A stretch of DNA of 64,000 bases from Flammula alnicola (taxonomy: Eukaryota > Basidiomycota > Agaricomycetes > Agaricales > Strophariaceae), in the NCBI GenBank assembly GCA_015499995.1, contig JADNRV010000150.1, forward strand, positions 1 through 64,000. Reading direction: 5' to 3'. Below the pieces are notes generated by a model. It did no database searches. It was not told where the DNA came from and was given only the letters and a program-made list of their open reading frames with translations. The translations under genes and the position numbers were made by a program. This document shows, in pieces, positions 19,740 to 43,106 of this stretch (the first letter of the stretch is position 1; each line of letters starts with the position of its first letter).

Positions 19740-22700
19740 ATTCCTTATAGGGCTTACATCACTTGAGAACACTTCACTGCTGCGGCCGGAATATTTTGAC
19801 GGAGGGTCAAAATGTGACAGCAGGTTGTTAAGATTTTGCGCATATTTTGCCGCTATATTTTGCCTTCACTTAAGGTGGAATACATGACTGCAAAATGTGA
19901 GGGCAAAATTCAAACAACTTGCCGCGCATTTTGACCCCCCGGCAAAATAGTCTGGGCACAGCAGTGCTTGAGAGCTGGCTTGGATCACTTAGCACTTGAG
20001 GTTACAACCACAAACAAAGTCTGACAACCCAAGTCAATCCAAGTGAGACCCCAAGTGCATAAGCTGTCAGAGCTCGATCCACCATCCAAGTGAGAATTCC
20101 GACACTGAAAGAACACAAGAAATAAACGTTCAGTTCGTTGAAACTCCGCTTCACATGACCGCGTTTCCTCATCGTGAAATTTTCACCGTTATCTTTTGTT
20201 TATCAACTACATCGATCCCCCTCCGCAATCCCAATCCCAATGCTTCCTCTACCGCAGCTACCGCTTCCTGCTTTGTGAAGACTTGTGCCATCCCTTGGGT
20301 TGAATCAACCAACGCACCCTTCAATTCGGAATGGCTACTCCTAATGTCTCGGGTTTGTAGGACATTCTGAAGCTCTGACCACCCGACGAGGTGCCATCCA
20401 CTTGGTTTCCGTTTTGCGCACATCGCTAGGAATGTCGTTTCGATGGTGAGCTTGATTTATTATCTGCGAATATCCATCTAACTCTTGCTGCTTGATAGAG
20501 GCAGGATTACGTGAATACTTCCTCGGCCAGCAGGCTCTTGCGCAATCCATATTGGAGGACGGACCGACAGTCGGTGACTACTGAAGTACGGGAGAATTTG
20601 CTGGTTGAGCATCACAGGGCTGCGCCTGTCATAGTAAGCTTGGTCTGCATCTTAGCTTCAAGAGGCCGTTAGCAAGCACATCGCCATGTCCTCGGACATC
20701 TGGTATGTTGCTTTACCTCTATTTCTAGCTGCTACTAACAAATATCTATTATATCCTGACCAGTATGCATGCTCAGAGTGTCACCGCGAGAATCTCAACA
20801 AAGAATTTGGTCGAACGAGGCGCGAGCAACGACAGCCACGACCCACCACGTTCTGCCCCTAGACCCCCGACAACGAACTGCCACCTATTGTCACCCTCGA
20901 TAGGCATAATCAAGCACGGCGGCGTGATGGATGTGGTGAGCAGGACGGGAATGAAGACAATATCTCAACGGGTGATGGTGCCTTTACATCAGTAAATTGT
21001 GGAAATTTGTGTAATGCCTTATAAGGGCAATATCAGTGCTGCCATATCATGTCACCGGGATAATTTCCAATCACATGGCAGCACCCGTTACAATGGCAAT
21101 ACATCGACACCCCTCCTTAATATCTTTGCCGCCATTTTGCTGCCATTCCGATAGCAATGTGTCATTGCTGTAAGGTTGAGACAGCATTTCAAGGCCTTGT
21201 ATTGCTAGGTATTTCTGAGTAGCCTTTGTAATGACAATGTAACTATTCCATCGGTTTAATATAGCTTGCATCGCTTCGAGAATACGGTAGCAGGTTTCAA
21301 ATCTGATTTATTTCAATACTACTAATATAGTACTGGAAAGTAGACGCTACAGAACGGACACTGCCACGAATGTGATCAGAGCGGTAAATAAGAAAGTGAG
21401 ACTTCGACAAAGGTGCACCCAAATTCCAGCATCAAGATACGACAAGCTTGTACTTGAAGATGACTCGATGACATGGCAGCGCGTGGCTCGAGCACAAAGG
21501 TGACGAGCTTGCTAGAACCTCGGAAGCTCTAAAATAAACAAGGGTTAGTGAAGGAGATAACAATGATCCAAGAACAAACATACCAATTGCTCGTAAACGA
21601 GGCAAGTTGCAACGTTTCCGACGACGTGAAAGAAACCGAAGAGCTGCTGACTGCGGCGGTCTAGTGGCAATGAGTGGAAGAGATGTACGCCCGTCAGCGC
21701 CATTTCCACCATCCATGAACCAAACCAATGTCGGAGTTGGGCTTGGGGCGCTCGTCAGCGTCCCAAGCCCAACAACGACATGGGAGGAGAGACGGGCAGG
21801 ATCAGAAGTACTCTGGTTCTTTTCCTATAGGTTTTTCGCATTAGAAGGAGTGACCTTGGGGGAGAGCAGCAGCAGGCTGAGGAGGGGAGTGAGAACATAT
21901 TGGTGGGAGGGAAAGATGCAAGCAACGATTCCGAAGTTCAACCCACATCAATTTCCTTTTCCGACCGTTGAATGCGTTCACATGATCTCCGGCTTAACGC
22001 GTTCCGTTCTTTTCCGTTCTGTTCCGTTGTCGATGTGCCTGTCCCTCAATAATTCTCTAAGTCCCTCTTACGACTTGAGAAATATTCTTGCAAGAGGTTT
22101 GAAGGGTCCGAGTCTGGATGAGTTCTGAGGACTTGGAGTAATTTAAATTCTGTTTCATTCCCGACTCGATTCTTAAGTCCGCGACTCAACATTCAGTAAC
22201 ATTCAGTAACCTACTCCAAGCAGCACTGCCGCCTGGCTCTGCAATAGAATAAGGCAGAGGCGTGATGCCCGGGTTGACTTCATATTCGCTGGCAGTCGTG
22301 AGTTTACAGACTTACGGGGAGAAATAGTTCTGACCTCACTCGGAGCGCGACTCGGATGTCTAGTCCATAAAAGGATCGCCGAAGGCTTTCTTCAAGTTGG
22401 CGAGATTCAAAGAGGTTATGCCCAACCTGAAATACTGATTAGCAAGTTACAATCCTCTGGCAATTATGAAAACTTCATTATAAATTTTAATCATACTGAC
22501 GAGCATTTACATGACCCCCGAAATGCTGGTACTACTTTTGCAACTGAGTATAATTAATGTCTAATAATGATCACTCACTCATAACCTTCATATCATTCTG
22601 AGAGAGGCAATATATTGATCTATAAGATTTACATGAGCTTACAAAAATCTGACCAGAATATTACATTCCGATAACGTCTCGACCATATCGGCAACCAAGA

Positions 22701-23130
22701 TATAATGCCATATCTGGTGTTGTCAGAAGCCGCAACACTGCCACCGGGTTGTCGAAGCCACAACCACATACCAACTTTTCCACGATTTACTGATGTATTG
22801 CGGGAGGATCACAAGTACTTAGATATATTAATTGGGGATCGAGGACCAATGTGTAGTAGACAGACACTGCAATCCATTATTTTAACCCATTCATACCATT
22901 TTTACCGTGAACCGTGCACAGTTACGACCCGGAATTCAGTCTCTTATTCACTTTGAGAGTCACTTGACAGACGACTTATTGACTTGAATGCTCACTTGAG
23001 CTGACATATATAAGAGAGATTCACTTGCTAAGAACGGAACCTCCTGAAACAAGTGACCATTGCTTAACTACTTGAGCTCACTTTCGTCACTTTATTACTT
23101 GTCAAAGTGATATAAGCTGCCAAAGAGAAT
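19740..23130. mobile_element. Possible 3.4-kb element with ACTTG-rich ends
   Basis: Both edges are dense in ACTTG/CAAGT motifs (19757-20090 and 22965-23115), and a short inverted match GCTTAYATCACTT occurs at 19753 and 23118. The interior has only weak open frames (for example 84 codons on the minus strand at 20169-20423, no known domain). No target duplication was found, so the boundaries are tentative. A small element at 19775-19966 is inserted in its left array. Confidence 0.35.
19775..19966. mobile_element. 192-bp MITE
   Basis: Inverted ends of about 40 bp with several mismatches begin CACTGCTG and include the shared block GGGTCAAAATG. It is flanked by CTT at 19772-19774 and 19967-19969. 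Removing it with one CTT restores an uninterrupted ACTTGAGAACACTTGAGAG run of the surrounding array, which supports the boundaries. Confidence 0.6.
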
Positions 23131-24378
23131 GTGTAGTTTTCCTGATGCATAGGTTGTGACTTTTTCATTCCCCATGGCACACTCCCAGCCGCACTCCCAC
23201 TATGTTCCTCCAGTCAATAGGCCATGCTCATTGGCAAGGCTGTCGTGTCAAAGCTCTCATAAGGGTCAGATTTATCTCTCTTCGGACTTCGGCAGGACTG
23301 GTCAAGAATCCCCTTTAGATTTCCTTCGGGCTAAAGGCGTGTTTGGGGTCGGGACAAAGCGACGGCTTCTCTGCTGCATAAGTAACCTGAATGCGGTCTT
23401 TGGACCGCATTCCTATGATAACTTCAATGATGATCATCAATGTCAATGACTGTCAATGGACATTGACTGGCGGCAGTTTACAATTGTCTTTGTCTCGTCG
23501 CGCCACTGGGTGCCTTCCCATCACTCCCGTAGAAGAATCTCGCCTAAGTACAATTACAGCTATCTACCAGCCAAAACCCGTGCGATAATGATATTCACTA
23601 CATATTAAAGAATAAGAACAGAAGCGCCATAAGTACCTGAGAATTTTCCGAGAGCTTGTCATTCACCTCAAGATAGACCGGTATTATTCTGATTTAAGCC
23701 AGATGAGAAAGATTCCGACTTGTCATGACCTGGAAAACCGATACGTCGAATAAGGTGATATGTGGTTCACTCCATAGAAAGGGCTCGATGTTTGACGTTT
23801 ACCGGTTACTGCGCATGGACAGTAGCAATGTAGCCCAACTTCCGATGAGGAGTCAGGAGGTCAAAGACATCCGAGTAGTGGCGCTAATGCTGACTATTGC
23901 AGAGGAGATTCTGTAGGTCATCGGTGTCCGCTCAAGGGCCGTGGTACATCCCCAAGCATACCTGGGATTCTCCGGGGATGAGAGAAGAACGTGAAGACGA
24001 AAGCAGCAATATCGACATTGCACTGCTAACATTGGAACATAATCTCCCCCTCAAACCATGTCACATTATGAAGATCTTCTCCGCTGCTCGCAATCCAGTG
24101 GTAGATTTAGATGTCGGGACTGGCCTTCCTCCGCGATTGGGTAGTTCCCCCGTTCTCGGAGATTATGTGGCTACAACATAGATTCACATATTGTCGTTGG
24201 CATATATTTATAACACGATCTCAACCAAGCTATTTTTGTACTAAGGGAATTTCCGACGATGCAAATGCACACTCTGTAAAAGGTTGCGGCATTGGGCTCG
24301 ATTATCCCAGACACTATGAAAATGTCACGACATCGAATTCAAAGGGGCAAAAACTTGATGAAGTCCTGAAGGTCAAGT
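23131..24378. other. Gene-poor stretch left of family F copy 3 last exon
   Basis: Open frames here (about 95-130 codons) overlap and resemble nothing known. Before the KDZ insertion this was the 3' flank of family F copy 3. No RNA gene or terminal repeat was recognised. Confidence 0.4.
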
Positions 24379-24485
24379 TCAGTACAGGTCACGAAATGCC
24401 GCAATGCCGGAAATGCCCACATCGACATAACCTTCGAGTCTTTCTTGCACGGTTTTGCGAACAAAAGAATATCTCTCCAGGTTCA
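24379..24485 (-). pseudogene. Last exon of family F copy 3, separated from the gene by the KDZ element
   Basis: Read leftward after an AG acceptor (CTCTGCAG), this frame gives VNLERYSFVRKTVQERLEG and stops with TGA at 24379-24381. It matches the penultimate part of copy 2 (VYAEVRQTVLEKLGTNAQ), the conserved end of the family. The rest of copy 3 lies at 39160-40269 on the same strand, and the 14.5-kb KDZ element with its 8-bp target duplication sits exactly between the two parts. The assignment rests on sequence similarity of about 20 residues and on position. Confidence 0.65.
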
Positions 24486-24531
24486 CTGCAGAGGATTACA
24501 GATCAATTTTAGCCAGCGAGCAATCAGTAAC

Positions 24532-24955
24532 TTCATGAGTTTCTATTAAACATTCAACATCTTGGACGTCAAAAGGCATTCAAACATATGATGTTTAAAC
24601 ATAAAATTTAAATGATTCTACAGAGTACTAGGTATTAGATAGGCTAGGTTGAAGTCTACATTTAAACATGTTTAAAATTTCTACAGGAAATGACCCAAAG
24701 ACATGTTTGAACGATGTAGTTTAAATGCATCAGAAAGTCAATAAACAGTTATTTAAATGAATGACTTTAAACATAAAGATTAAATGAGACGTTCACGACA
24801 AAGGGAAACGCACTTGAACGGTAATGTTTGAATGCAAAAAGGTAAGTAATATAGGTGTTTAAACAGTCTGTTTAAGTGAAATTGGCCGTCACAAAATGTG
24901 GAGTAATGTCTTTAAATGCCAGTTTAAATGGTCAGTTTAAACAGTGTTATACTTT
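24532..24955. repeat. Left subterminal TTTAAAC array of the KDZ element
   Basis: About a dozen copies of GTTTAAAC-like half-palindromes (TTTAAAC, TTTAAATG, TTCAAAC) at irregular spacing, matching the array at the other end. They are probably transposase-binding sites, by analogy with other DNA transposons. Confidence 0.75.
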
Positions 24956-25173
24956 ACCCGTATGTCCAGTACTTTGAATTCTTGAGCGGCTTTCCAGTGC
25001 GAGAGAGATGGACTGGCAAAGTTCCCGAACCGTCTGCACTTATACCGCCAGCCGAGGCGGTCACATCTGTGGTTGTCACGGTCGAGACAGTCACATCCAA
25101 TTGTGCAATTTGAGATGTCGTGGCGCGATTGCTGCGTCGAGGTGCTGCAGTTGCAGTAGCGGTGGTTGCGCTG

Positions 25174-27396
25174 TCAATGTACCATTAGTGGCTGTGAATG
25201 GGATATGTGGCCAACTTGCCTTTTACGACGCTTTGACGACTTTGAAGGTTTATCGGTAGACGCGGGACGTTTTGTTCCGCGAGTGACCTTGGTGATAGAA
25301 GAGGTCAATAAAGAGGTAACAGTAGCGGCAGGACTGGAAGCTAAAGTTTCTGGTAAGGAGGGATCTGGCACGGCTTGATCGACTAAAGACCCAGTGGAGG
25401 TCATAGTTGAAGTGCCAGGAGCGGCAACTAGAGTACTTGGCGATGTGGGAGCTTGTGCGTGAGTGATTTCTGAGAATGAAGACGTGGTGGAGGCCATGAC
25501 GACTGTGGTAGGAGTAACAGCCTGACTACTGATGTTTTCAGCAGTGAAGGAATGAGCTGGCTTAGCGAGCGAAGGCTTGTCAGTCAGAGCAGCAGTAGCA
25601 ACAGCGACTTTGGGCATGCCAGGAATGGGATCTAACAGGATAGGTTCGTCAGTCAATCTATCGAAAAGAAATCATAAACATGGTTTGCATACCTTTCTTT
25701 CGAGAGGATTCCGACGGAGAGAGCATTGCTTTAGGCAAGTTTGCAAGAGAGGACGGGGTGTCAGAATTCGTGGATGAGGCAGGCAATGGATTCACATTAT
25801 AGGCTCGAAGGGCGTTAATGTCAAGGTTGAAGATCCGCAGCCTTGCATCTGCAGCTTGCTGCGAGTTGAAGTGGTCATGGAGTCCAAACAAAGAGACCGG
25901 GTTCAGAGCAGATGGGTTCGCAAGGTCCTTGAATGGTGCGGAAAGGAGGAAGGTAAAGTTCTTATCCATCCAGGGAATCTCGGATGGAATGTAGTCAATT
26001 TCGGTGAGTGAAAGTGATTTGGACCATGCTGAGAAGAATGTGAGTTGAAATGCGAAACGAGGGAGGCAAAAAAGGCTTACCCCATTGCGCCTCGACATAT
26101 TCGAGAAGCACTTTCCGAAGGGCATCAACAGTGACGTTGTCCATTTCAATGTCTGGCAGGAGAGGGCATCCGTCTTCATCGTAAGTGAACAATGTTGCTG
26201 ACCCTTTCATGGGGGAGGTGTTTTCTATAAAGAGGTTAGCAATGTTCTTGCGCAACAATAAGTGACTTACTGCCAACTGTCTTCTGGCAGCAATCACGCC
26301 ATGGGCTCATAACGTTTCCAACGTAGTGTTTATTGAAGAGCTCGTAGTCAGGTGTCTCGCCAAATTGCTCGCCAGTAATATCGAGACTATAATTCAATAT
26401 AATATCAAGATGGATACCGATATTGATATATTTTGCTTACCAACCGGTCTTCAGGTTTTCCTGGGCATCGCGATATGAGTAGAGAACATGGAAGTGGCTC
26501 TTCCCGATCTTGTGGCCGCCATCTTCAATGGGCCCAATAAGGCTGCTCAGAAGAGTAGAAATGTTGTCGGGCATGAGTGCTTGATTGCTAGGGAATCATA
26601 CATTGTTATTAGCTCATTGCAATGATAGAGAAAATTGAACATACCGATAAATAAGCTTCTGTTCTTCCGAATCCTTGAGCGCAGATGCCTTGTCCTCCCA
26701 CTCCTGTTGCTTATCCTTCAGCTCATCCCACAGAACCTTGAGTCTCGCATTCATCATGCCAACATGCATCTTCGGGCTGATTGAATCGCGTTTACGGGTA
26801 GCATTGATCTCGTCGCTAACAGTTGGGCGGTGTTCATTCTCGAAAAGTTTTCGACCCGTGATTGTGCCACCTTTGAGAAGTGAGGACCAGAGCAGTTTGA
26901 CGCTTGAATCCACAGATGTGGTTCGTAAGGAAAGGGCTGAAGTAGAGGATGAGGATGAGGATCCAGAGTCGGCAGCGACAAGACCCTGTGCGATAAGGTT
27001 CTTCACACCAGTAGCAGCAGTTTTCTCCCATTTGACCTTGGCTTTGTGCTTGGCATTTCGAAAGAAAGCGTTGAAGCTCTGCATAATTAAGGAGAATCAA
27101 AATCAACCATAATCTGAAGAAATTTTAATGTTACTCACCTCGCGTATCTTGTTGGGTGACTTGTCTTCGGAGTTGTCGACAGATTGAAGTCCAGCATTGA
27201 GTTCTTCAGTGAACTTCTGCTCGAATTCGGTGCGGCGTGCTTTAACCCATTGTGAAAGGTCTACATCATCTGTCGGAAGCGGCTCGCCAGGAGTGGCAGG
27301 CTTGCCATACGCGGTCTTGGCAAGGTACTGGGAAACAAGGTTGACAAGAAATTCGCGCTGAGCGCCCTTGAATCCTGAACCTTTTCCGGAGGTCAT
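25174..27396 (-). CDS. KDZ cargo protein 1, unknown function, nuclear-like basic tail
   Basis: Not recognised. About eight exons with GT-AG introns run leftward from MTSGKGSGFKGAQREFL at 27396 to a stop at 25174. The N-terminal half is charged and helical (KARRTEFEQKFTEELNAGL, then FNAFFRNAKHKAKVKWEK). The middle contains ISPKMHVGMMNARLKVLW, a GKSHFHVLYSYRDAQENL segment and GCPLLPDIEMDNVTVDALRK. The last exon is rich in Ser, Thr and Pro and ends in a basic stretch (KPSKSSKRRKRQVGHISH) that looks like a nuclear localisation signal. No catalytic motif is evident. It faces away from cargo 2, with a shared 0.7-kb upstream region. Its place inside the KDZ boundaries suggests a role in transposition or silencing escape, but this is inference from location only. 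Confidence 0.65.
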
Positions 27397-27489
27397 AGTT
27401 GAGATAAAATTTTGAGATCAGGGAGATAAATAGAGGCAGTGAATTGGGGGAGATGTCGTCCGAAAAGTTGGAAAGAGCATTGTTTAAAG

Positions 27490-27645
27490 AGGAGAGCAGG
27501 CAAAGCGGTGATGGTAATGAGGCCAGGATGGAGGGCCATGATTCTATCATTGCAGAAGAGGCCTGAAATAAGCGCAAAGCGCGTTGAACAGGCAAAGCAG
27601 CGATGCTAGCCAGGCCAGGACGGAGGGCCAAATTCTATCGCCACT
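27490..27645. repeat. Direct repeat between the divergent cargo genes
   Basis: Two diverged copies of about 55 bp, each with CAGGCAAAGC followed by GGCCAGGAYGGAGGGCCA and TTCTATC, at about 27492-27548 and 27590-27645. They lie upstream of cargo gene 1 and may be promoter elements. Confidence 0.5.
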
Positions 27646-28104
27646 GAACAAAGCGCGTTGAAACGTGAAACTATCACATATATTTGACTATATTGGGTCT
27701 TGAAGCCAATAGCTTTATCTCTCGAGCGCTTGAGTTGGTGGCTGGCGTTTATCTAATTGGTCGGGTAAACAGTACAATTAACCCTGCCTCTTCCTCTGGT
27801 AGTGGTCCATGTACAATTAACTGCCTTACAATTACGAATGCATTGCGCAGAAGTTGCAATATCTCCTATTTGTCGGTGCTCAAAGCCATGGTCAAAGCTC
27901 CCGCAGATTTTTCAGTTTCGCAGACTTGCAACATAATTGTGTTCAATGTATGCTCTGTACGGTCAGTTACCCCATTTATTGTCTCACACAAAAGAACGAG
28001 TAACTGATAATCACATAAATTGCCACAGACACTTGGAAATTCCCCAGAAACTTACCCCTCCAAATCACTCAGTTATCATATATCAACCTCCATCCTTCTA
28101 CATA

Positions 28105-29217
28105 ATGCCTGCAACCCGCAACCAAAAGTGTCGCAACACCAGGCCTTCACCTCCCCCTACTCCACCCAAGAAACGCCGTTCACCTCGCAAACGATATGGA
28201 CCTTTTGGGCCATATTCTGCCGCAGATCGAGAACTTGATGGAATGACTCGAGTAGAAGCAGTGAAGCACAACGACGAGCGCATTTCTCGAATACTGGAAG
28301 TACTTGCCGGTAAGGCTCGAACTTGCCACCACAGTCTCCAGCATCGGATGAGTGCACCTCGGCTATCAACCGGCAAGACTGATCGACTTGATGCAGGAAG
28401 GTGGTTCCAAAAGGTCAATTTAATCCTTCTTCCGATCACATTTTCTCAACATATTATTTTATTTTATTCCAGTGCCTCGAAGGTTCATCTGGGCCTTGTC
28501 GATACGTTCATTGGGCTACGGAACGATTTGACCCAAGCATTCTATTTGAGAGCGACATTCTGGGTCCCTTGTTCAAAATTCGTGAAGAGCTTGATGCCTA
28601 TGACAACGGCTATTCTGTTCCCAGAATAATAAGAACAATGTGGCACCCCCTGCACGACCTCTTCCGGAAATCCGTCCCTTTCCATCGCTTTCACCCCTAA
28701 ATAACTCCCCGAGTCCTCCTCCAATTGCGTCGACCTCACAACGGGTATTGGATCGCCCTTTTTCTAGGAATAACACCCCAGATATTCAAGCCACCGTCTT
28801 CGATAAGTCCTTGGGTGTTACTCTGATGGCCTGGACCAAGGTGAGTTTCTATGCATTTAATTGAGTGTCGATATTCTAACGCAAGCATTCAAGAACAATG
28901 CGCGATTCGTAGAAATGGTCCTCTACCCTCGTGAGGACGCCCGCGTCCGTCTGTCAGACTTCAAGGTCTTGCTCGGCTCCAAAGGTATTGAGCAGACACA
29001 AGACATCGAGATCTATCATTTCGGTCACGCACGTTGGCTTCCTGCCTTATGGAATACTCCCCACATTGTCCCTTCTCGAGGGCATGCGTTACTGATGCGA
29101 TATGCAGATGTTACGCATCTTGACGACTTTGAACATCATCTCCCTTGGCTCTCGGCAGCATCTACTTCTGCTATTGTCACCCCTCCGCCCACAGACCACA
29201 AAGGTAAAGCACGCTGA
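28105..29217 (+). CDS. KDZ cargo protein 2, unknown function
   Basis: Not recognised. It starts MPATRNQKCRNTRPSPPPTP, a basic proline-rich N-terminus with KKRRSPRKRYG that could serve as a nuclear signal, followed by DRELDGMTRVEAVKHNDER. An intron follows GRWFQK and the next exon opens CLEGSSGPCRYVHWATERF. A second intron (28840-28893) joins LGVTLMAWTK to NNARFVEMVLYPREDARV, and the protein ends TDHKGKAR. The frame between about 28590 and 28650 does not carry through directly (IIRTMWHPL versus NNVAPPARPLPE), so an extra intron or a frameshift must lie there. It is divergent from cargo gene 1 and upstream of the TET/JBP gene. Confidence 0.5.
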
Positions 29218-31250
29218 AGAGACCGCGAGCGGCTAGCTCTGAACGGAATACTATTCTCCTTACCTGAGCTATTTTTAGCACTTAGTAAAGCTTACAATGT
29301 AGTCTCAATGTTACAAGTCCGGACATTACAATAACAAGACTACTAAGGACTAGAGGAAACTATGCAAGATAACGAGGAACGCGCGGTCAATTAAAGACAT
29401 TATCATTAGTAACTATTGAGATACTAGTCAATACATCTAATGAAGTGTACGGAAATAGGCGCCTTTCAGTAATATCTTAACCATCCGGCCTATACAGCGA
29501 GGGTGCGGATCTCTAGATTAAAAGAACGGACATCTAGGCACACTACAGGACAGGTCGCGTGACATTGCCGAAGGCATCGAGGACAGTGGAGCAGCCGGGG
29601 TAAAGCAGACGCCCATAAACGCGCCTGTAGCAACGCCAATCAAAGCTCGGATCAGAGGGATACCTAATTGGGAACACATACCATATCGGGTAATAACTTG
29701 GTACAGGAAGATTTCCGGGGTGCATAACTCGACATAGCGAGATCCCAGATGCACGCCGAGGGTACCAGAGTATCGGGTACAGAGGACGAAGGGTTACAAC
29801 CCTAATCACGAGCATTATCTCGGACAGAACGTGCGTGGATTGCCCGAGCGTCTCCGACGAGATGTAGGCGCGTCTATGCTCCGGTCAGTCGATAGCCAAT
29901 GACAAGACAAGATACCAATGAAAACGAAAGGTCACGAGCCTGTATACCACGCGGTCGAGGAGGAGTAAGTCTTAGGTGCTTAAGTTAGCCGAGCCGACGA
30001 CGATCTGAGCTCCCGATCCAACCAAAAAGGCATGATTGAGCGGACGCGCACGGAAACTGTACTCCACAAGGCCGCCGCTCGCGCACAAATGCCCATGAAA
30101 TCTCTATATTCTTGTCATTGCGTCTATGTAATAATATATCGTCTCAGTAGTATATAAGCAGCCCTGTAACACCGTAGAATACAAGCAATTTACCACCACG
30201 AGATACAAGCGCTTAAGAGTTATATCTTAAGTGTTTCGCCTCTAAGTACTAGGTAGCTTCAAAGCGAGAGTCCATAATATAAAAGAAACCAAGTAACGAT
30301 ATAAACGAACTGTTAAGAGAGAGAACAAGTGTCTAAGTGCGCTTCCAAGCCAAAGAAAGAGAGTTATAAGCCAAGGAACCTGTCTAAGTGACTTGTTCAA
30401 AACCTACCCTTTGTCAAAGGACATCTGGGGACCTGGACTGTAGTGTCGGTAGACGAAGCGTCTACGCGCCTCTGGCCATTGTTTAGGAACTGTAGTGTCG
30501 GCAGATAAGGAGTCTGCGCGCCTCTTTCCACTAGTAGAGTTTTTGAGACAAGTAAAGACAAGTAAAGGGCATAGAGCCATCTTCTCAATTGGAGAACAAG
30601 TTAGAACGAGATCAGCTAGCAGTTTGTGCATAGAGCACTAGTTTCAGGCCACCAGTTACGAAATCACACAAGTCTATTGGACTTAAAACGACCTATTGAC
30701 TATTAACGCGTCTAAGGCCTTGCCCCAGCCGTTACTTAGTTAGAAACCTTCTTTTATCGCAAACCTTTCATCAGGTATCGATACTATAAAACTATTATCC
30801 TCCCCTTGGACGAACTAAGTCAACTAAACATTGATTTGGGTGTTTGAAGTGTAGACTAGTAGTATTAAAAGTGAAGCAGATTAGATTTGATAGTGATCCT
30901 TTAATAGACATTACCGAGTCTATTAAACGCGACTACTTGGTTATCTAGTAGTTCACACACACCCCGCACTAAGCATCTTAACGCGCTCCATTTTAGCCGC
31001 ATTCAACTTCATGTGACGATCCCCTATCGACAATGTGATTTCCACCTCGCTCCATGATATTATACCCGCACGATACACCAAGTTGTTATACCCCGTGATA
31101 GCCATAGAGTCTTAGAGGGCCTCGTGAATGGTAGTTACATATAATAATATAAAGACATGTCTGGTACAGTCATTCTTTATTTCCAATTGTTCTCCGATCA
31201 TCCTTTGAGCAGCGGTACGGATACTACTTACGAGGCTCGCCCAGCGTCGA
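29218..31250. other. Decayed repeat sequence inside the KDZ element
   Basis: A plus-strand frame at about 29570-30110 reads like a broken coding region with several in-frame stops (for example RIRGIPNWEHIPYRVITWY, later RGLPERLRRDVGASMLRS). Around 30150-30250 there is an LTR-like stretch with TATAAGCAGCCCTGTAAC. Two diverged copies of CTGTAGTGTCGGYAGAYRARG, each followed by TCTRCGCGCCTCT, lie at about 30434 and 30491. I cannot delimit an element. It is probably an old insertion into the KDZ transposon. Confidence 0.35.
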
Positions 31251-32335
31251 CTACGAGTCGTCATCGTGCGTACTCGAATCAAACACCATGGGATCATCCG
31301 CACTGCCCATCCCCAGCGCAGCCGCCGAGTCCTTGAACTTGTCGTGACGTCGCCCTTCACGGCGGCGATGCCAAATGAGAACCAGAAACCTCGCGCTCCT
31401 TGATCTTGCGTAGCAACGCCTCGTGTCGGTTGACTGTCCGAGGCGTGTCGGGTCCGAGATCGTGTCGCTGTTCCGCCGTCTCAAGGCTCTTGTCTCCCTC
31501 ATGTTTGTGTCGCTCCCAAATGCCTGGAATAAATACAGACCACTGACAAAATTTATGTACGCTGAGACGCCTCTGGGTCGACAAGAGAAAGGTAGACGCA
31601 GACGTACGTAGCACGGAACATGATCGATTTCAGGCCTGCATTGACCCTCTTCAAGTCTGCACGATTTGTAGTTGGACGTAGGAAAGACTGCAAAACGTTT
31701 TAACTCGACGCCCGTACGAAATGTATAGTCATGACTCACGCGGCCCCGGGGTACCATTGCAAAGGCTCCTACGAAAATGAGAGCGCCAAAAACTGCTGAT
31801 GATCTATAGAGAATCGTTTGAATAGGTTTTGGGGAGTCTGCGTCAATTGGACGAACCGTGGGTCAAGAGAAAAATCCGTGGATCGTGGCCCTGCAATCTG
31901 CAGTGCAACAGGTATGTTTTGGTTTTAATCTATTCAGAAAGAATTTGATTAGGTTTATGGTAAAGGCTGGACATGCTCACGAGGCTTTCAGCGAGGCTTT
32001 GCGGAGTCATGACGGCAGCGATTCTGTGTTCGAAAGGTAAGACAATCTCGTGTGTAGACGAAATCCACTAACAAAGCAGAAAAGGTAGTCTGCCCCATCG
32101 TATCTCCTGACGTCCTCGCCACCAGGGGTATCATGGTCGTTGCGAAGGCAGCACAACATCGGACGAAAGTCTTGAGGGTGCGTCGTGACTGAAAGGCGGG
32201 TTTGACCAAGGAAAAGGGGCCTGGTGTTGCCCTTCGTGGCTTTGTAGGCGAGCTATTCACCCTTTCCGACGACATGGGCGTGAGATGTATGCCTGAACGA
32301 GGCGCGCACGGTGGGAGCAAAAGAGGGGAATGCCT
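31250..32335 (-). pseudogene. FUSC-type (aromatic acid exporter-like) membrane protein fragment
   Basis: Read leftward, 32200-32030 encodes SRRTLKTFVRCCAAFATTM and SGDTMGQTTFSALLV, resembling the first membrane segment of fungal FUSC/ArAE-type transporters. Further on (about 31830-31740) SSAVFGALIFVGAFAM resembles a later membrane segment of the same family. Between and after them the frame is broken by stops and the pieces are in different frames. The downstream part (31250-31620) has charged frames such as SLETAEQRHDLGPDTPRTV with no recognised homology. This is most simply a truncated host gene carried within the KDZ element, no longer functional. Confidence 0.4.
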
Positions 32336-32479
32336 CGGAGTCGCCGCTTGGAATTTGGAAAAGCCAAGAAAAAGCTCAAGTGGGAGCTAAATTCGTCGTG
32401 TTCCGGGCGTTAAAATATTTCTTCCTCGAGACGGTCATGCCGCGTTGATAACGAAGTTACGAGACGGCCCTTGAGCTTG

Positions 32480-32549
32480 AGTACTTGAGTACTCAAGTAC
32501 TCATGCACATGGCGATGCATCATGACCGTTGAACGTTGAACGTTGAACA
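32480..32549. repeat. 22-bp perfect palindrome followed by GTTGAAC heptamers
   Basis: The palindrome at 32480-32501 has half-site AGTACTTGAGT. About 25 bp later come three tandem GTTGAAC units (32525-32549). Confidence 0.7.
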
Positions 32550-32773
32550 TTTGCACTTGTGTGGCTTTGCCATTGTAGCCAAACTTGGCCGCCCAATTTT
32601 CTTGCGCTTGCTGTTCAATACTGTCAATTCAATTCTTTCATTGAATCTGTATACTCCAACCTGGACGCTAAATGAGTGTTGAAACCCTTGGTACCCATAG
32701 CCCTGTAAATCCCCATTTTACTTATCATGTATTGTATTCTTCACCCCTCGGTCAGGCCATCCTATTTGCTTTG

Positions 32774-32957
32774 CGCGCTGGGTCTTACCATAGGCTCTAT
32801 GGCAAGTGAATGCGGAATAGGCCAGTCAGAGGGGGAATTTGGGCTTTCCGGAACCCGTTGTGCCATACGGAATACCGATTGCTCCAATGTCTGTCGGCTC
32901 ATAGGCCATTTGTGTAAACGAGCTACGCGCTGGGTCTTACCATAGGCTCTATGGTGC
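32774..32957. repeat. Direct repeat upstream of the TET/JBP gene
   Basis: The block starting CGCGCTGGGTCTTACCATAG (about 30 bp, ending in GCTCTATGG) occurs at about 32774-32803 and again about 154 bp downstream, within 290 bp of the TET/JBP start codon. It may be a promoter duplication. Confidence 0.65.
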
Positions 32958-33059
32958 TCTTTCCAATGCTAATGGATCGAAAGCTTTTAATTGCCTTTCA
33001 CATCTTTTAATCTGCTATAATTCAATGATCTAATTCTTGCCTTGGTCTAGGTAAATATC

Positions 33060-34730
33060 ATGGAAGCATTGAAAACTCGGGCAGGGCGTATATTTTCCCC
33101 TTATAGTTTATGGAAACTACCCTTTGCGCGAACAAAAGAAGACCCACCAATCAGTACCACCGTTGATCTCGAGTTGCTTGTGCAAACCTCATGCAAGCTT
33201 GAGAGCCACCGCTTTCTCGATGGGTCTGGTGATTCAGAAGGAATGGAGTTATCATCCCACCCACCATCGCCGTTAATTGATCTAGATTCCGATTCCAATT
33301 CCGATTTGGAAGATAACACTGCGATCACCCCGGAAACGCTTGCAGGGGTCACCGACGCAGATCGAAAAGCTGAAAACTCGGAGTCGATTTCGAAAAAGCG
33401 CAAACGAGAGGCAAAAAAGGCGCGTCGGAGTCGTAAGCGTGTAGAGAAAGCCAGCGCGACTCATCCCGCTGAAAACTATGCTCCAAACCCCGCTACAGCT
33501 AAGGTACACTCGAAGGAATCAACGCCAATCAAGCTATCCATTGACGTTAAATCCCTACCTTCATCGTCAGGAGGATCCTGGGTAGGAAAGCGACAGGCAG
33601 GTGAGAAGGATACACCGTGGACTCTTCAAGAATTTCTGGACAATGACTTTACACTGGTGGAATGGGACGGCGAGTAAGCTAGCTATCTATGCCTTCTCCT
33701 TTTACATGGACCTCACCATAAATGTTAGGAAAACACGTCTGATCCTTGACGTGAAGGGGCGCATTGTCGGAGTACTTGTTGGGCATCCAAACGACCCTCT
33801 CTGGCATTTGGTCATCAATGATGCATCTGAGGTTATGGCGAGTGTTCAGGAGCTTGGACTCCAGCAAGATGCCTTTACCGAAAACCACCTCAGTCACCGT
33901 CGTGGAGATTTTTTGGCCCTTCCAGTTGGGGCATCATTTGGTGGTGGGCAATCGGTAAGAAGGTACTCAGTTCTGCTTGTGCATCCTCAGTTTTAATGCC
34001 TTCCTTAGGTACCGGGTAACCTGGTCCATTCGAAGGAGCAGCGTCGACTAATTCAACGGCTCCTCGATTGCCATAGCATTCGCCGTATTTGTGGCTTTCA
34101 ATCGAGTGGGCTCATCTCAATACTTTTCTGTACAGATCATTTCCTTATTGAAAATTTACAGGCGCATTTGCTGCATTTGCTCCTAAGCTCTATCGATACT
34201 ATGCCAACACATTGGGAAAGCTCTTCGGGAAGCATCAGGGTCTGGTTCATAATTTCAGCAACAGTATCTTTCCAGCTGCCAGCTTCAACTGTGGCCCCGT
34301 CACTGTCTCGCTTGATCATACCGACTACGGGAACCTCTCTCACGGTCTTTGCGCATTGACTGCCCTGGGGTCATATGATTTCACCAAAGGTGGCCACATT
34401 GCCTTCCTCAACTTCAAGCTTGTTGTACAATTTCCTCCAGGATTGACTGCCCTTATTCCATCTGGCTGCGTAGCTCACGGAAACACCCCTATTCAAGATG
34501 GGGAAACCCGCCTTTCAATCACTCAATATGCCGCAGGAGGCTTATTCCGATGGGTTGCATATGGTTTCAAATCAGCGAAGTCAATTATGAAGACAAAGGC
34601 GGGAAAGAAGGAAAAGGAAAAGATTGACATGGAGGATGGCGTTCGCTGGACCCAGGGGCTGGATATGTTTTCAAAGGTAGACGAGCTTCAATCTGATTTA
34701 TTGGAAACTTTTGGCCACTCCATAGATTAG
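33060..34730 (+). CDS. TET/JBP-family 2OG-Fe(II) dioxygenase carried by the KDZ element
   Basis: TET/JBP enzymes oxidise 5-methylcytosine or thymine in DNA using Fe(II) and 2-oxoglutarate. The N-terminal 200 residues are low-complexity with a basic nuclear-type segment (KKRKREAKKARRSRKR). The catalytic part starts after an intron at 33674-33728: KTRLILDVKGRIVGVLVGHP, then HLSHRRGDFLALPVGASFG. An intron restores RRICGFQSSAFAAFAPKLYR. The iron-binding HxD lies in LDHTDYGNLSHG, the distal His in SGCVAHGNTPI and the 2OG-binding Arg in GETRLSITQYAAGGLFRWV. All predicted metal and cosubstrate residues are present, and the four exons join without a frame break. Such genes are known to be expanded together with KDZ transposons in mushrooms (Iyer, Aravind and colleagues). 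The 5mC substrate is inferred from the family. Confidence 0.85.
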
Positions 34731-35045
34731 ACAATTGTATACAATGTTTAATAATTTCTCAACTGGTAATAAAGATGCCCTTCTACTCTGCAAACATCAA
34801 TGCTCCAACAATCTATGTAACAGCAACTTGATTAAATTTGTCGAATTCTGGATATGCCTACCTGAGTTTGAATTTCTTGTGGCACAGTCGGTCTGTTGCT
34901 TGGCCGTCACAATTGTCTGTCGTGTTGTCTTAGGCCCTGTCCTCCAAGCTTGCGATTGAGGAATGCATTCTACCTACCCGCTACCCCTCTTGCATTTTCT
35001 TACCCTTCCTCGTCCTCGCACTATCTGCCAACAATCGCTCAAAGA

Positions 35046-38000
35046 ATGAAACAAGCAAAAAAGCAAGCAAAGAAACGTACACGACATCACGAGTACGATG
35101 ATCTCAATGCCAGCCCATCAGCTCCAAGTCCAATCCCTGCAGCTCAAGAAACCGCCACTCACCTTGAAGAACACGATGAAAGCCAACAGAAATGTCCACG
35201 TCTTGAAGCTGAACCCAAGTCACCCACAATTCAGGCTGATGAACAAGTTCTGAAACGTGTTTATACCAAGCCACAGGTATGTTGGTCTCAACCTTGATCA
35301 TTCTATGTCAATGCTTATGCTCTGTCCAGGGAGCTTCCGCTTTTATGGATGCCTTTAGGCCGAAATTCGGGGATATTCTTCATGCAATGCTGGCAACTGA
35401 ATCACTGCCCACCATCAGCGAACACTGCAGCTGTGGCATGACCGACGCACTCCGCCTGTGCCACTGCAATGACTGCAGCTTCTTTGAACCATGTTGCGCT
35501 AGTTGTTTTATCAAGCGCCACCAGGGCATGCCTTACCACTGGGTCGAGTTTTGGAACGGCACCTTTTTCGAACGGAAGGATATTTCAGAGATTGGCCACG
35601 TAATCACATATGGACACGACCCATATGGTGGTCATTGCCCCTATGCTAAACCTCTCGAATTCACCATTGTCAACTTGAACGGAGTCCACAAGACGAAGGT
35701 TGGATTCTGCGCCTGTTTCGGAAAAACCCAAGAACGATTCGACCATTTGATCAAGGCCGGCATATTCCCTGCCACCGTCTCAGCACCTCAAATTGGCTTC
35801 ACATTCACGCTCTTGAAGGATTTTCATCTCCATACATTGACCTCAAAGAAATCGCCATATGATTACCTCATGGCTATTCGACAGAAGACCAGCAACGCAT
35901 TCGTTGAAGATGTTCCAGTACGTGAAATTCATGATCCAATATACCTAGATTATTTATTTACTCAACGAAATTCCAGAATCCTTATTCCCAGTTTCTTCGC
36001 GTTCAGAGGATCTGGCGGGCGTTGACCCTCATCAAAAATAGCGGGCAGGCCCACAACGTTGATAGGTTCTTCCCGCTTCGTCGTCCAGGAAACGTAATGG
36101 TTGTGTGCTTTGCTTGTCCTGAACCCGGCTTCAATATTCCTGACGAACAGTGGAATTCACTCGATGATGACTTAAAGTATGTCATACATGCTCAGGTTTA
36201 TGTTTATTACTCACAGACACTCATTAGATTCCTCAATACACTTTTTATTATGAAAGATGGTCACTTTGGCTTGCAGCGACTGGCAAAGACGTCAATGGAC
36301 GACCCAGACGATGTATCACTATTAGAGGGAGCAGGGCTTTTCCCACCGGATAAAGAATATAACGAGTATGTCCGTAACGTGGTTGCGTACTCTGAAGAGG
36401 TCAGTCGCATTTATCAAATATGAAGGATTACCTTAATTAACCCACTCTTCGGAACAGAAAACAACCTGTTCAAAGTTCAATGCTCTGGAGATGCAGAATA
36501 AAATGAAATTCAAGGGCGCTATCATAACTGGTGTTCTGGCTGTGGAGTGTATGCGTCATATTATTTTTCTATCAATGGTTGACTTGCAAGTCGGGGAGAG
36601 GTATGCTTCATTCTACCTTTGTGATTTGGCATATTATTCTTACAAGTTACCACCCTTTAATCTAGATATGCCAACGCCGACTTCTGTCTCGCGTATTTCT
36701 TAAAGCGTTTTCTCTTCTTCCAGTGGATGGAAAGAGCCAAATACTTCTTACGGATTGTCGAGACCTATGATGTGGCATGCCAATATTACGTCCACCTGAA
36801 GAAGCGTTTCAAGTCCAACTTTCCAGATCTCGCTGATGTCATCGACATTATTCGTCTCCTTGTCCCAAAGAAGCATCTTGACGGTCATAAGGATGACTGC
36901 AAGTATGGATTTTCTCTCAACTACGAAGAAGGTGTAGGCTGCAGTCATGGAGAGGGGATTGAAGAATCTTGGGCTGAGTCAAAGCAATCCGGCGGAAGCA
37001 CACACCAAATGAACCACGGCCATCGGCATGACACGCTCAACGATTTTCATAATTATTGGAATTGGAACAAGCTTCGTCGGCTAGGTGCGTGTTTCGAGCA
37101 TAGCTTTTACTTATCCACTGCTAACAAACTACTAGGTCAATCCCTTTTTGATGGGCTTCAGAAAGCATACAAAAAACGCGAAAGCATGATCGACCATTTC
37201 ATTGGGCTATGTATTGTACGCGGAGAGGAGAACGTCAAGAAATGGGAGACTGAGAAGACGGAAGCATGGTTTAAGGATAGAGAATGGCATAGCGTTTACC
37301 GACTGAAGCAGTCAAAGCGTACGTCTACTCTTTGAATAATTATCTCATCCAACCTTTTATGACACTGATATTGCCCATTCAGTCCCAAGCCAGACGGCCA
37401 TTTTCCAGGCCCTTGAAGGAGCTGAAAAGGCACAGGAGGCTACCAATGAAGCTTTCTCAGTGCGTTCAGCCTCCTTACCACGGCTTCTTCATCTTGGGAT
37501 TAAACTGCAAGAGAAGCAGTACGTTCCTTTCTCCGTGACGTGAATTTGTGAATTTCCTTTCCCTAAATATATTGCTAGGCGAGATCTTCGACATGCGATC
37601 AAGTATCCACCCGATGGCTCAGATAGTAGTGGCATTCCATCCTGAAGACAGTCATTAGCAGTGGAAATCCTCTCTTGGCGCAAGACTCAACTGCGTTCCC
37701 TGCCTCAGTTCAAAGCTCTTCTCAGCACTATTGACCCCAATGTCAACGCTGAAGATGACATCCTCTTTCTTCCCTCTGACATTGACCGGAGCAGTCATGA
37801 AAGCTTGGGAATTGTCTCTCTCACATCTATGGAATTTCGACTTCGAGAAGGCCAAGCTAACGACGCCGTCACATCACTTTGCAATGTTATTCTCTATAGT
37901 ATGGTCCTCCATGACGCCAAAACGGCGCACGCTCGTGGAGTTTATCAGAACACCCGTGCCTTGAAATTCATCAATGCAGTCAAAGGAAAAAAGACAACCT

Positions 38001-38750
38001 GGATAGCTCGTTATCGTGAAGCTCGAGCCAGGCTGCTCGCCCTGACCAATTCTGACCCAAAAACCCTTGACGACTTTCCCGAATTGACCGATGAGGACAC
38101 TTACGCCAAGAATGCTAATTCAGCACGAAACATTGGAGACGGCGCGAAAACTGATAGCTGGATATGGACGTTTGGCCGTCTGAAAGGTCTGAGTCAAGCA
38201 GAACAGGATGATTTTGTCTTTGAAAGTAAGTCACCCAGATTCCTCTTACATATTTAAATGATATCTAATTTCTATCCAACTCCAGCGAAGAAAGTTCAGT
38301 GGTTTCGGGCTCGTGCAGATATGATGCGTTGGGTGGAAGAGCTTGAACTGCTGGAAGAGGAATTTCGCCGCCTGATTCGCAGATTGGAAAAGATGGCATC
38401 CATATGGGAATCTCTCGCATCGATGTCAACTGCTGCCCTCAAATACCCTCCTACCTCATCTTCGGGTACAACCTTGTCTGGTTACTCAGCTTATGCATCT
38501 CGGAAAGCGGCAATGTATCACAAGATGGCTGAGAAGGAACGCCAGCGCTTCAAGGATGCTGGTGGTCAATGGCCTGCAGAGAATGAATCTCTTTCGGAGC
38601 ATGTCCGGAAGCGTCGACCAGCATTGGCCGTCAACTGGACTGAGGTTGACAAAGATCTTGAGAATGAGGAGCTGGAGGAGGTCGAGGTAAGTGTCTATTC
38701 ACCTTTGTCAAGCCACTAATACTCAATCTTCTATTCAGCTTGATACCTGA
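35046..38750 (+). CDS. KDZ transposase with CxC2-type cysteine cluster; one in-frame stop
   Basis: It starts MKQAKKQAKKRTRHHEYD, a basic leader, then after an intron FMDAFRPKFGDILHAML. The cysteine cluster CSCGMTDALRLCHCNDCSF with EPCCASCFIKRHQGMPYHW matches the CxC2 domain found with KDZ transposases. Candidate catalytic acids are D in MKDGHFGLQRL, D in ETYDVACQYY and E in SHGEGIEESWAE, with HLDGHKDDCKYGFSLNY before the last. The C-terminal part (WIWTFGRLKGLSQAEQDDF, then a coiled helix RADMMRWVEELELLEEEF) is typical of the family. After an intron the protein ends in EEVELDT before TGA at 38748-38750. A TGA at 37643-37645 interrupts the frame shortly after HAIKYPPDGSDSSGIPS; the frame resumes at RQSLAVEILSW, downstream of all candidate catalytic residues. 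The copy may be inactive or make a truncated enzyme. Confidence 0.8.
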
Positions 38751-38774
38751 TCTATCTTTGTACATGTCTTGCGG

Positions 38775-39056
38775 CTCCCATTTAAACTGTCCGTTTAAAT
38801 TATTGTTCAAACTGTCTGTTTAAGTTATTGTTCAAACTGTCCGTTCAAATGGCTGTTCAAATAAATCTTTGTTTAAAATGAATTTAAACAGTTTAAACGA
38901 TATTAGTTATGCTCCAATAAATCATATGTTTATTTAAACAGTTTAAACATGTTGTCAACTATCTCGAGGTGAGGGTGCAAGGGTCTGTTTAAACGGCAAA
39001 ATGTTTAAATGGAAAATTACATCGAAGATGGAAAGTGTTTAAATAAAAGTCATGAA
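38775..39056. repeat. Right subterminal TTTAAAC array of the KDZ element
   Basis: Same motif set as the left end (GTCCGTTTAAAT, TTCAAACTGTC, CAGTTTAAAC), including a short tandem unit with TTATTGTTCAAACTGTC repeated near 38800-38845. It starts just after the transposase stop codon at 38750. Confidence 0.75.
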
Positions 39057-39159
39057 GAGTCACGAGCAATATTGCAGGTCTTACAGACGGCCACTGTTGG
39101 TGCTAAGCGAACACACAAGGCAATGAGTTACACGATCACTGAGACTCAAAATTACGCAT

Positions 39160-40269
39160 ACCATTCATGTACTTGATTGTATAAGTGCTGGGATTACCGA
39201 TAGGCTGAAATATAGCGCTGGTAACAGGCTCGGTCGTTTCTAAATGGCGAATAATTGGGTTGTTCAAGTTAGTAAAAGCATTACAAGATTTCGAAAATAT
39301 TTGACATACCGAACACATATGGACTCATGCCTTGGGGAATGTCCGATATCCTCAGGAGCTTTTCAGATTGGGTGGGAGAGAGACTCACGAATTAAAAGCT
39401 TTCAAACGGAAATTATTAGCTGCTTGAATACACTCCGCAGATTTCAGCTACGTACATCTCCGAATTCTAATTTTTCACATACAACTAGCTGGAATGCTCC
39501 TGAGTTTGTGGCTCTTCCGTTCCTAAAGAAAGCGCCGTAGAAATGTAAAAGTTAGTTTAAATAAATAATACTTTTTGTATGAATGGCTCACTCTTCGATA
39601 ATATCCAGTCCTTGAGAGTTCTTTCCTTTAAGATATAAGAGCGTTTCCAAGCCTCGGAGTGGAAGAGTCTCGACGGCCTGGGAAATAAGGTGAAATCAGT
39701 GTGGATCCAATCAATTAAAGGCAGTTTTACCCCTTCCGTAGCGCGCAAGAGCTTTACGGCGACCTGAAAAAAGTAGTATTAGAACCTAGAGGTTCATTCA
39801 ACATGCCTGAAGTTCAACGTACCGCGTCGATAGAAATGTGTATGACTTCACTCGATGCTGTTTTCAACGTAGAGCCAGACTGGATCTGTGAAAGATAATA
39901 ATGTTAAAACATAGGTTGAGATCAACGTTAACTAAATAGTTGCTCACTGTCAACCCTAGGGATGCCGCTGTGTCCCTATACATGTAATAATGAATACAAT
40001 AACCACAATTGGCTCTCAGTGAAATCAATGTACGTGTAGGTTTTCATCCTGCATAGTCCATGAGCAAGTCTCATGCGATCAATGAAGATAGAAATTAACG
40101 AACCAGGCATCGGCCTTCTCGACAGACTTGGCACTGTCGCTTGCAGCCAATTGGGCGAGGAGGGTGCAATCGACCACGTCGGTCTAGGCAGTCAAACAAA
40201 ACTTAGCTCTAGAGGATTCATGTACGTGTCAAGGACTTTATTTACCTTATCCTGGTCTGTTATCTGACC
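39160..40269 (-). pseudogene. Family F protein, copy 3, split by the KDZ element
   Basis: Exons read leftward: GQITDQDK (40246-40269), CTLLAQLAASDSAKSVEK, an exon with SEVIHISIDA, GAFQLVVCEKLEFGD and TTEPVTSAIFQPIGNPS. They match in order copy 2 segments TGISDQNK, STLLAQLAASGRYDRL, NTAISVDA, EANFQLGVCSEDRDK and TDETITNVLFTKIRSG. After an intron donor at about 39160 the sequence reaches the KDZ right end (39062); the family's last exon is found beyond the left end at 24379-24485. The first exon is not identified with confidence (a candidate lies at 40330-40480). It is more diverged than copies 1 and 2 and is now certainly disrupted. Confidence 0.6.
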
Positions 40270-41591: not shown

Positions 41592-43106
41592 ATGGCTTTT
41601 TTCTCAATCCAAGACCTTGTTCTAAGCTCTGCTCCCAGCGATTTCTCCACGTCTGCCGGCGAGGATGCCACTGCGTCAGTCGGCAGCGGCCAGGCTACTG
41701 CATTCGTTGTATGTGCTCGTGCTGCAGACATGTTCCTAGACTAATGCAGTCTTTCTTCTGTAGACTGGGATCTCTGATCAGAACAAGGTAGGCATTATTG
41801 GTCAACGCTTGAACCACTCGAGCACGTGGTTAAAACATTCATCGAATGTGAATTTAGAAAGATGTAATGAACTCCACATTGTTGGCCCAGCTTGCTGCGT
41901 CTGGCCGATATGATCGCTTGAAACAGACCGACAAATGGTAAGCATGGTCTTCACCATTATCCTAGACTTTAGCTCATGAAAATTTAATAGGTATGACTTC
42001 TACAAGTAAGTTTGCGTCGATTCCTTGCGGGCCACTTGCTTTTTTACTCATCTAGAGCAATATAGATCTGTTCTCGAGGGCCTCGGCTGGGATGTAAGTT
42101 CCAATCTGACAAGTGTTCAATTTTATAACTCGCTTCTTTTCTAGGTCACGAACTTCAGATTCGACGATCACTCTATTGGAAATACCGCTATTTCGGTTGA
42201 TGCCATTGTCGTTGATTTTTTGAAGACTTTTATGGATGTACGAAGCCCGTCTCAGGTGTAGACTAGTGACACTGACAGACCTTCATCTACCAACGATAGC
42301 CTGAGCAGCTGGAACTCATGACGCGCGTCATCGCCGCCTTGGAAAACTCCAAAGATCCCTCTGTTAACATCTTTACTAGGTAAGCCATTGATCGTCAACT
42401 TTACGCTGAAAATCATGGCGACGATGGACCCACACGTCCTTGCAGCTCTAGTGCGAACGACCATGAAGCCAACTTCCAGTTAGGAGTCTGCAGCGAAGAT
42501 CGCGATAAGAATGTAGGTATTCTCTGTGTTGTTCAAAGGATCCTACCTAACATACTGGTTCTTAGATTATGTTCTGTGAGTGTTGATAGATCTTGGCGCA
42601 GTAAACGCAACTCTCATATGGTTGGACAATATAAAAGCCATTGGCGCATTCGCCTACAGTAAGTGAAAGACGACAAGCTTGAAAGAGATGTACTAAAGAG
42701 AGCTGTGAATTTCAGCTACTGACGAGACGATCACAAATGTGCTCTTCACCAAGATTCGTAGCGGTTCCGCATCGTTCAGGAATGGTAAGCCATCATCGCC
42801 AAACGCTCTTAATGAACAATAATCCGTAAATGCATGTCCCAACGCAATAGCCTTCCAGAAGATGACCCATGAGTATCCTCCTGAGCCAAGTTGAATTAAA
42901 ATAGATACTAACAGGATAAAATATCAGTCGACAAGCAGGTCTACGCGGAGGTTCGTCAGACAGTCCTTGAAAAGCTTGGGACAAACGCCCAGGTATGCAG
43001 CTACTAGATTTGGTCGCGAAGATTAATACTGACACACCATTGGGCCTACACGCAGACTTTGATCAGAAACCTCGTCCTCCTCCCTCCCAAGAACTCGAAG
43101 AAGTAG
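41592..43106 (+). CDS. Family F protein, copy 2 (apparently intact)
   Basis: Function unknown. Exon 1 is 41592-41708 (MAFFSIQDLVLSSAPSDF to ATAFV). It is followed by very small exons: TGISDQNK, KDVMNSTLLAQLAASGR, YDFYK (about 14 nt), LEGLGWD, VTNFRFDDHSIGNTAISV, PEQLELMTRVIAALENSK, SSANDHEANFQLGVCSED, then segments with NATLIWLDNIKAIGAFAYS, TDETITNVLFTKIRSGSAS, DKQVYAEVRQTVLEKLG and TLIRNLVLLPPKNSKK, stop TAG at 43104-43106. The predicted protein is about 240 residues, soluble, without signal peptide or cysteine pattern. Exon borders from 42530 to 42700 are uncertain. All blocks recur in copies 1 or 3, which argues that the gene is or was functional. The tiny exons make automated annotation likely to miss it. 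Confidence 0.65.

Follow-up and report, generated by a model that had tools for sequence, protein, structure and literature searches.

A TET-carrying KDZ transposon and the family-F gene that it appears to split in Flammula alnicola

Does a 14.5-kb stretch of a mushroom genome represent a complete KDZ transposon that has landed inside a gene, leaving the last exon of that gene stranded on its far side? The question is raised by positions 1-64,000 of contig C58 (129,893 bp) of Flammula alnicola (Strophariaceae, Agaricales), hereafter the window, which belongs to a 74.4-Mb assembly of 861 contigs; C23, C24, C232, C446 and C467 are further contigs of the same genome. A first-pass annotation had proposed such an insertion, with an 8-bp duplication, inverted ends and a split host gene as three concordant signs. 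Our analysis indicates that positions 24525-39062 are very probably a complete or near-complete TET-carrying KDZ transposon that moved by cut-and-paste into a minus-strand gene of a small family, family F, with a duplication of 7-8 bp and separation of the C-terminal exon.

The identity of the element is given by its transposase gene, which encodes a KDZ domain (PF18758; expect value (E) 5e-29, 102 bits) and a CxC2 domain (PF18803; E 7e-24, 84.5 bits), both above the cut-off. A PF18758 transposase with an N-terminal CxC zinc cluster, together with inverted ends and a duplication of at most 8 bp, characterises the KDZ superfamily, and all of these were found here. The conserved blocks of the transposase are open, and its splice model is provisional. 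To each side of the element stands CGAGCAAT. All 27,762 pairs of identical 8-mers lying 3-40 kb apart in the window were scanned, the adjoining 30 bases being compared in inverted orientation with shifts of up to 2, and this pair gave the top inverted match (20 of 30 bases; runner-up 19). The inverted ends align over ~72 bp (51 of 72 columns, 71%; E 3e-8), in agreement with the boundaries first drawn. The termini read 5'-CAG..TCA(C)-3', with CAGTAACTTCATGAG...AAGAGTCA as the terminal letters. Both ends are rich in TTTAAA, which occurs 11 times in the leftmost 450 bp and 10 times in the rightmost 362 bp, against a maximum of 4 in 2,000 base shuffles per end; away from the ends, every 450-bp window tried held at most 2. 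What changes is the length of the duplication: the 8-mer is present on both sides as claimed, and the duplication is 7-8 bp long, the final right-hand base of the element being ambiguous, because two copies of a sister element (below), if given the same ends, show 7 bp in one case and 8 bp in the other. With one base ambiguous, we rejected duplication length as a classifier.

The boundaries can also be judged from these relatives. Apart from the copies on C58 and C467, the closest KDZ relatives are those of C23 and C232 (59% amino acid identity), which represent two independent insertions of a sister element, whose ends are homologous to those of the window element; blastn similarity of C23 to the right end stops at window position 39063. 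In window orientation, the C23 element ends in CAGGAAATTCATGAG...AATAATCA, and the repeat GGAATTTGG (C23 orientation) stands on both sides. It carries TTTAAA 14 times at each end and 3 times between. The open reading frame (ORF) that it interrupts is presumably a Plavaka-type transposase, and the piece scanned with Pfam gave no match. When the C23 flanks are joined, C24:369331-369485 matches the resulting sequence without interruption (155 of 155 bases), and three further places span the junction at 72-78%; the C24 site is either the allele or a second copy of the gene that the C23 element interrupts. The sister element on C232 (99.9% identical over 3,657 bp) sits at a different place, with other flanks and the repeat GAGTCTGT, its identity to the C23 copy breaking off at the terminus. 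If the same ends are assumed for both copies, the duplication is 7 bp at C23 and 8 bp at C232. Judged by its two end matches (C232:24540-42515), the C232 copy is ~5 kb longer than the C23 copy and therefore probably holds a further nested insertion. We further searched the 74-Mb assembly for the 21-base terminal pattern TTCATGANTTTTNTTTAAANA, with at most two mismatches and the reversed pattern as control, and obtained 32 matches against 4. Six matches are exact, four of them at the two ends of the C23 and C232 elements and two at the right ends of the C58 and C467 copies; the other 26 have two mismatches and comprise the left ends of C58 and C467 together with 24 positions elsewhere. As the sister ends are homologous and an uninterrupted counterpart of the C23 site is present at C24, these comparisons lend independent support to the window boundaries. 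No copy of the window element with ends elsewhere was found among the best candidates of the genome search, an outcome that the first-pass annotation had named as a possible refutation.

The element is also present on C467, at 99.9% identity to window 19967-39373, with small structural differences between the two contigs; given this near-identity, C467 may represent either the second haplotype or a duplicate created in assembly. To the left, window 11889-19774 matches C467:251-8111 at 98.9% (1.1% difference) with several indels, against a difference of less than 0.1% over 19967-39373.

The flanks of the element read as parts of one diverged minus-strand family-F gene, split by the insertion. 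Family F is small, with 6 database members at E<=10, including one of this genome, three of Pholiota molesta and one of Cubamyces menziesii, and its intact paralogue in the window has no Pfam domain. In a profile scan of the window, host segment E3 to the right of the element scored 57, the next non-paralogue position reaching 18.5. To the left, the exon proposed at 24379-24485 is the C-terminal exon read to its stop, and positions 24424-24486 match the end of the paralogue with rank 2 of 125,176 non-paralogue positions; the final ~14 codons beyond 24424 have no alignment to it. Of 16,155 random placements, 11 reached the C-terminal score, 62 reached that of the ordered pair E7+E8, and none reached their joint sum. 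The similarity of the left exon to the last exon of the paralogue, on which the split had been made to depend, thus survived the profile test over its aligned part. The insertion lies ~38 bp upstream of the stranded exon and, from the splice signals, most likely sits in an intron. Since five of the ten segments tested could not be recognised, the host gene was or is probably decaying, as a pseudogene or a very diverged copy. Coordinates of all features are collected in Table 1.

Table 1. Features of the element, its host gene and family F in the window.
Feature	Position	Strand	Remarks
KDZ DNA transposon, 14,538 bp	24525..39062	+	to 39063 if duplication is 7 bp
Left target-site duplication CGAGCAAT	24517..24524	.	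8 bp; GAGCAAT if 7 bp
Right target-site duplication CGAGCAAT	39063..39070	.	
Left terminal inverted repeat, imperfect	24525..24601	+	aligned part 24531-24601
Right terminal inverted repeat, imperfect	38986..39062	-	aligned part 38986-39057
Left subterminal array, TTTAAA / GTTTAAAC motifs	24594..24941	.	TTTAAA x11
Right subterminal array, TTTAAA motifs	38781..39043	.	TTTAAA x10
Accessory gene, several exons	25174..27417	-	relative orientation kept in sister element, which has no convincing TET match
Second accessory gene	27937..29217	+	part conserved in sister element
Nested dispersed repeat, ~1.77 kb	~29212..30982	.	copies elsewhere in genome
TET-fold 2-oxoglutarate (2OG)-Fe(II) dioxygenase gene	33060..34730	+	~4 exons, last junction provisional
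KDZ transposase gene	35046..38719	+	CxC2 in ORF 35243-36025; KDZ in ORF 36661-37335
Stranded C-terminal exon, host gene (family F copy 3)	24379..24487	-	acceptor ..CTGCAG, phase as in paralogue
Remainder of host gene	39172..40269	-	E2, E3, E7, E8
Host E2	40246-40269	-	splice sites and length only, judged by eye; poor score, rank 214
Host E3	40100-40183	-	strong
Host E7	39447-39524	-	weak singly
Host E8	39172-39261	-	weak singly
Intact family-F paralogue, annotated BDZ97DRAFT_1764409	41592..43106	+	
Family-F copy 1, truncated by contig start	2..874	-	

Besides the transposase, the element carries a dioxygenase whose fold is closest to TET enzymes and which has the HxD, H and R active-site residues. 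Among 32 aligned relatives, selected from 120 listed, H156, D158, H209 and R220 are invariant. The Gly/Ser at H+5 and Asp at H+11 of the AG-type (CcTet-like) enzymes of Kyakuja elements are replaced by Asn and Cys in 32 of 32, and all 32 have HxD in place of the HxE of the PE type. Of ten relatives scanned, none reached the Tet_JBP (PF12851) cut-off of 34.9 bits; seven gave a sub-threshold match (best 28.6 bits, P0122) and three gave none. No TET entry emerged when PDB sequences were searched with one ORF and with two profiles; that the enzyme is a TET relative is shown only by its fold and the sub-threshold Pfam matches. Two loci of the same genome do exceed the Tet_JBP cut-off and carry G/S and D at the AG-type positions. 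The two TET types adjoin disjoint sets of KDZ transposases (15 and 14 KDZ matches, none shared). Window 32703-34762 has a counterpart at 91% identity in a TET-like gene at C446:88724-89712; no KDZ row falls on that contig, and the gene is a possible source or derivative of the enzyme gene of the element. In the window, the segment shared with C446 has its first match at 32544, and a 44-bp palindrome (32469-32512, 86%) lies near this left edge.

The remaining interior is less readily classified. The first accessory gene has no Pfam match above the cut-off, and the 7,995 candidates scored against its protein included no homologue at E<=0.001, perhaps owing to serine-rich words. An impression from the sequence that it encodes an HMG-box protein was rejected, as Pfam gave no HMG match and the lone structural model was poor (predicted local distance difference test (pLDDT) 57.5). 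The second accessory gene has one part (28909-29094) with a match in the sister element (48% over 62 amino acids), in inverted orientation. The nested repeat had escaped the original inventory of the element, as had the possible 7-bp duplication, while the boundaries of that inventory stand. Among the best 40 of 281 candidates, 40 of 44 match rows are copies elsewhere in the genome at 87-99%, mostly near 98-99% or 93%. The repeat may be a solo long terminal repeat (LTR), and it has a TATATAAG stretch near 30150.

This interior bears on the alternative that survives best, unlikely though we consider it, namely that the 14.5 kb is a composite of an older, smaller KDZ element and later mobile insertions, the TET gene being one of the passengers. 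The nested high-copy repeat fits such a history, as do the C446 copy of the enzyme gene, the palindrome beside the shared segment, and the sister element, which has no convincing TET match, C23 and C232 being without rows in the TET searches. Against it, 15 of the 41 genomic TET places of the window type have a KDZ match no more than 7.5 kb away, six of them at 3.17 kb, although these six may be copies of one element; and no flanking direct repeat was seen at 32.5 or 34.9 kb on inspection by eye.

Several observations weigh against a complete element within a single split gene. Canonical-looking introns were obtained at six of nine block junctions of the transposase model; when junctions were re-run with other edges, each one tried had an open solution, and not all of these were canonical. 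The main ORF of the dioxygenase (34152-34730), taken alone, has no Pfam or PDB sequence match, and a search of the genome with Tet_JBP (49 rows at E<=10) does not list the gene. Host segments E1, E4, E5, E6 and E10 are the five left unrecognised in the profile scan, and in an ordinary tblastn search the C-terminal exon alone gives no better than E 16. The choice of E7 and E8 followed a look at their ranks, which flatters the figure of 0 in 16,155 for the joint score. The empty site that the first-pass annotation had proposed as a check was not found for the window insertion, whose flanks, searched separately at 1.5 kb each, match only C58 and the filled site on C467; an uninterrupted site exists for the sister insertion only. 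The sole other flank match was a ~150-bp dispersed repeat at window 23000-23150, left of the host gene, with 29 rows elsewhere at 72-99%.

Some of these points would be expected if the element were real and the split gene were not, the right flank being a decayed family-F fragment and the left exon a chance resemblance. The missing segments, the unaligned last codons and a left match that is weak by itself, ranking second rather than first, all suit this alternative. Chance, however, would have to supply not only a score equalled in 11 random placements and a joint score equalled in none, but also an exon no more than 40 bp from the junction, on the correct strand, in the correct order and with the matching acceptor phase, and we regard it as decidedly improbable. 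That the 8-mer and the inverted ends coincide by accident and the element ends elsewhere can hardly be entertained: pairs of 8-mers are common in 64 kb, yet their combination with inverted ends is uncommon, and the sister ends fall at the same positions, where all six exact pattern matches are found.

If the insertion of a KDZ element into a family-F gene is accepted, known families suggest how its parts would work. The KDZ transposase would cut at the inverted ends, and the transposase or an accessory protein would bind the TTTAAA arrays. The TET-fold enzyme would counter silencing of the element by DNA methylation. The host gene would have been inactivated, with loss of its normal transcript, because its intron would now exceed 14 kb, unless it was already decaying. 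More tentatively, and at somewhat less than an even chance, the element may represent an inverted-end KDZ lineage in Agaricales that carries a fourth transposon-borne TET-fold type (HxDxxN.....C), beside the AG and PE types and the PU type of rust fungi, and separate from the partnership of Kyakuja elements with AG-type enzymes. Every transposase lineage would then have acquired an enzyme of its own and retained it, and the substrate may be other than 5-methylcytosine (5mC) or 6-methyladenine (6mA). A group of mushroom KDZ elements now has ends fixed by three insertions that belong to two related families, together with a single uninterrupted site, and its copies can therefore be found by pattern. 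Since one and the same genome pairs two TET types with two KDZ transposase sets, the role of transposon-borne TET enzymes becomes testable by comparison and by assay, including whether such enzymes are kept for their own transposon, the window type lacking the substrate residues of CcTet.

How does this element compare with known systems, as far as the available parts of their descriptions go? KDZ ends had been held to be usually hard to define, a view that calls for reservation, as inverted-repeat ends are already published for Cryptococcus and for Marasmius oreades, in the latter as motifs of KDZ and Plavaka elements (PMC8290104). KDZ1, KDZ2 and KDZ3 of Cryptococcus neoformans are ~9-11 kb long, have inverted ends of 139-241 bp and duplications of 4-8 bp, and are mobile in the laboratory, with KDZ2 and KDZ3 insertions in introns and exons (PMC12810828). 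The window element resembles them in its KDZ transposase with a CxC zinc domain, inverted ends and short duplication, and differs in that its zinc domain is CxC2 where theirs is CxC1, its inverted ends are shorter and have diverged further, and it carries a TET-fold gene, none being mentioned for KDZ1-3 in the text available; their movement has been observed, whereas the window element is known here from sequence. TET-carrying KDZ elements have also been published (Kojima 2025; PMC12730594). Like the TET-carrying Kyakuja elements of Agaricomycetes, the window element combines a KDZ transposase with a TET/JBP-type dioxygenase. Kyakuja-1_LB and -2_LB have 7-bp duplications, 5'-CA..TG-3' ends without inverted repeats and an AG-type enzyme (PMC12730594), whereas the window element has inverted 5'-CAG..TCA(C)-3' ends and an enzyme without AG residues; its duplication, of 7 or 8 bp, may equal theirs. 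It shares inverted ends and a 7-8-bp duplication with Zisupton, whose duplications are of 8 bp; the TET-carrying Zisupton of Agaricales (Agaricus bisporus), as inferred from the text, is of PE type with HxE (PMC12730594), in contrast to the HxD of the window enzyme, a comparison made by description rather than by a transposase tree. Zisupton elements of Auriculariales carry a TET of AG type. CcTet of Coprinopsis cinerea (PDB 8jkk, 7w5p, 7vpn) is 17% identical to the window enzyme, with no profile match by sequence; at the places of its Gly331 and Asp337 the window enzyme has Asn and Cys, by an ungapped count from HxD rather than a residue-level structural alignment. No description of the HxDxxN.....C type was found in the available parts of the literature on TET-carrying KDZ elements; Iyer et al. 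2014, which is cited there, may include it. Inverted ends and short duplications are thus already on record for KDZ elements, and the window insertion is a further example; its least ordinary part is the type of its enzyme and the pairing of that enzyme with one set of KDZ transposases.

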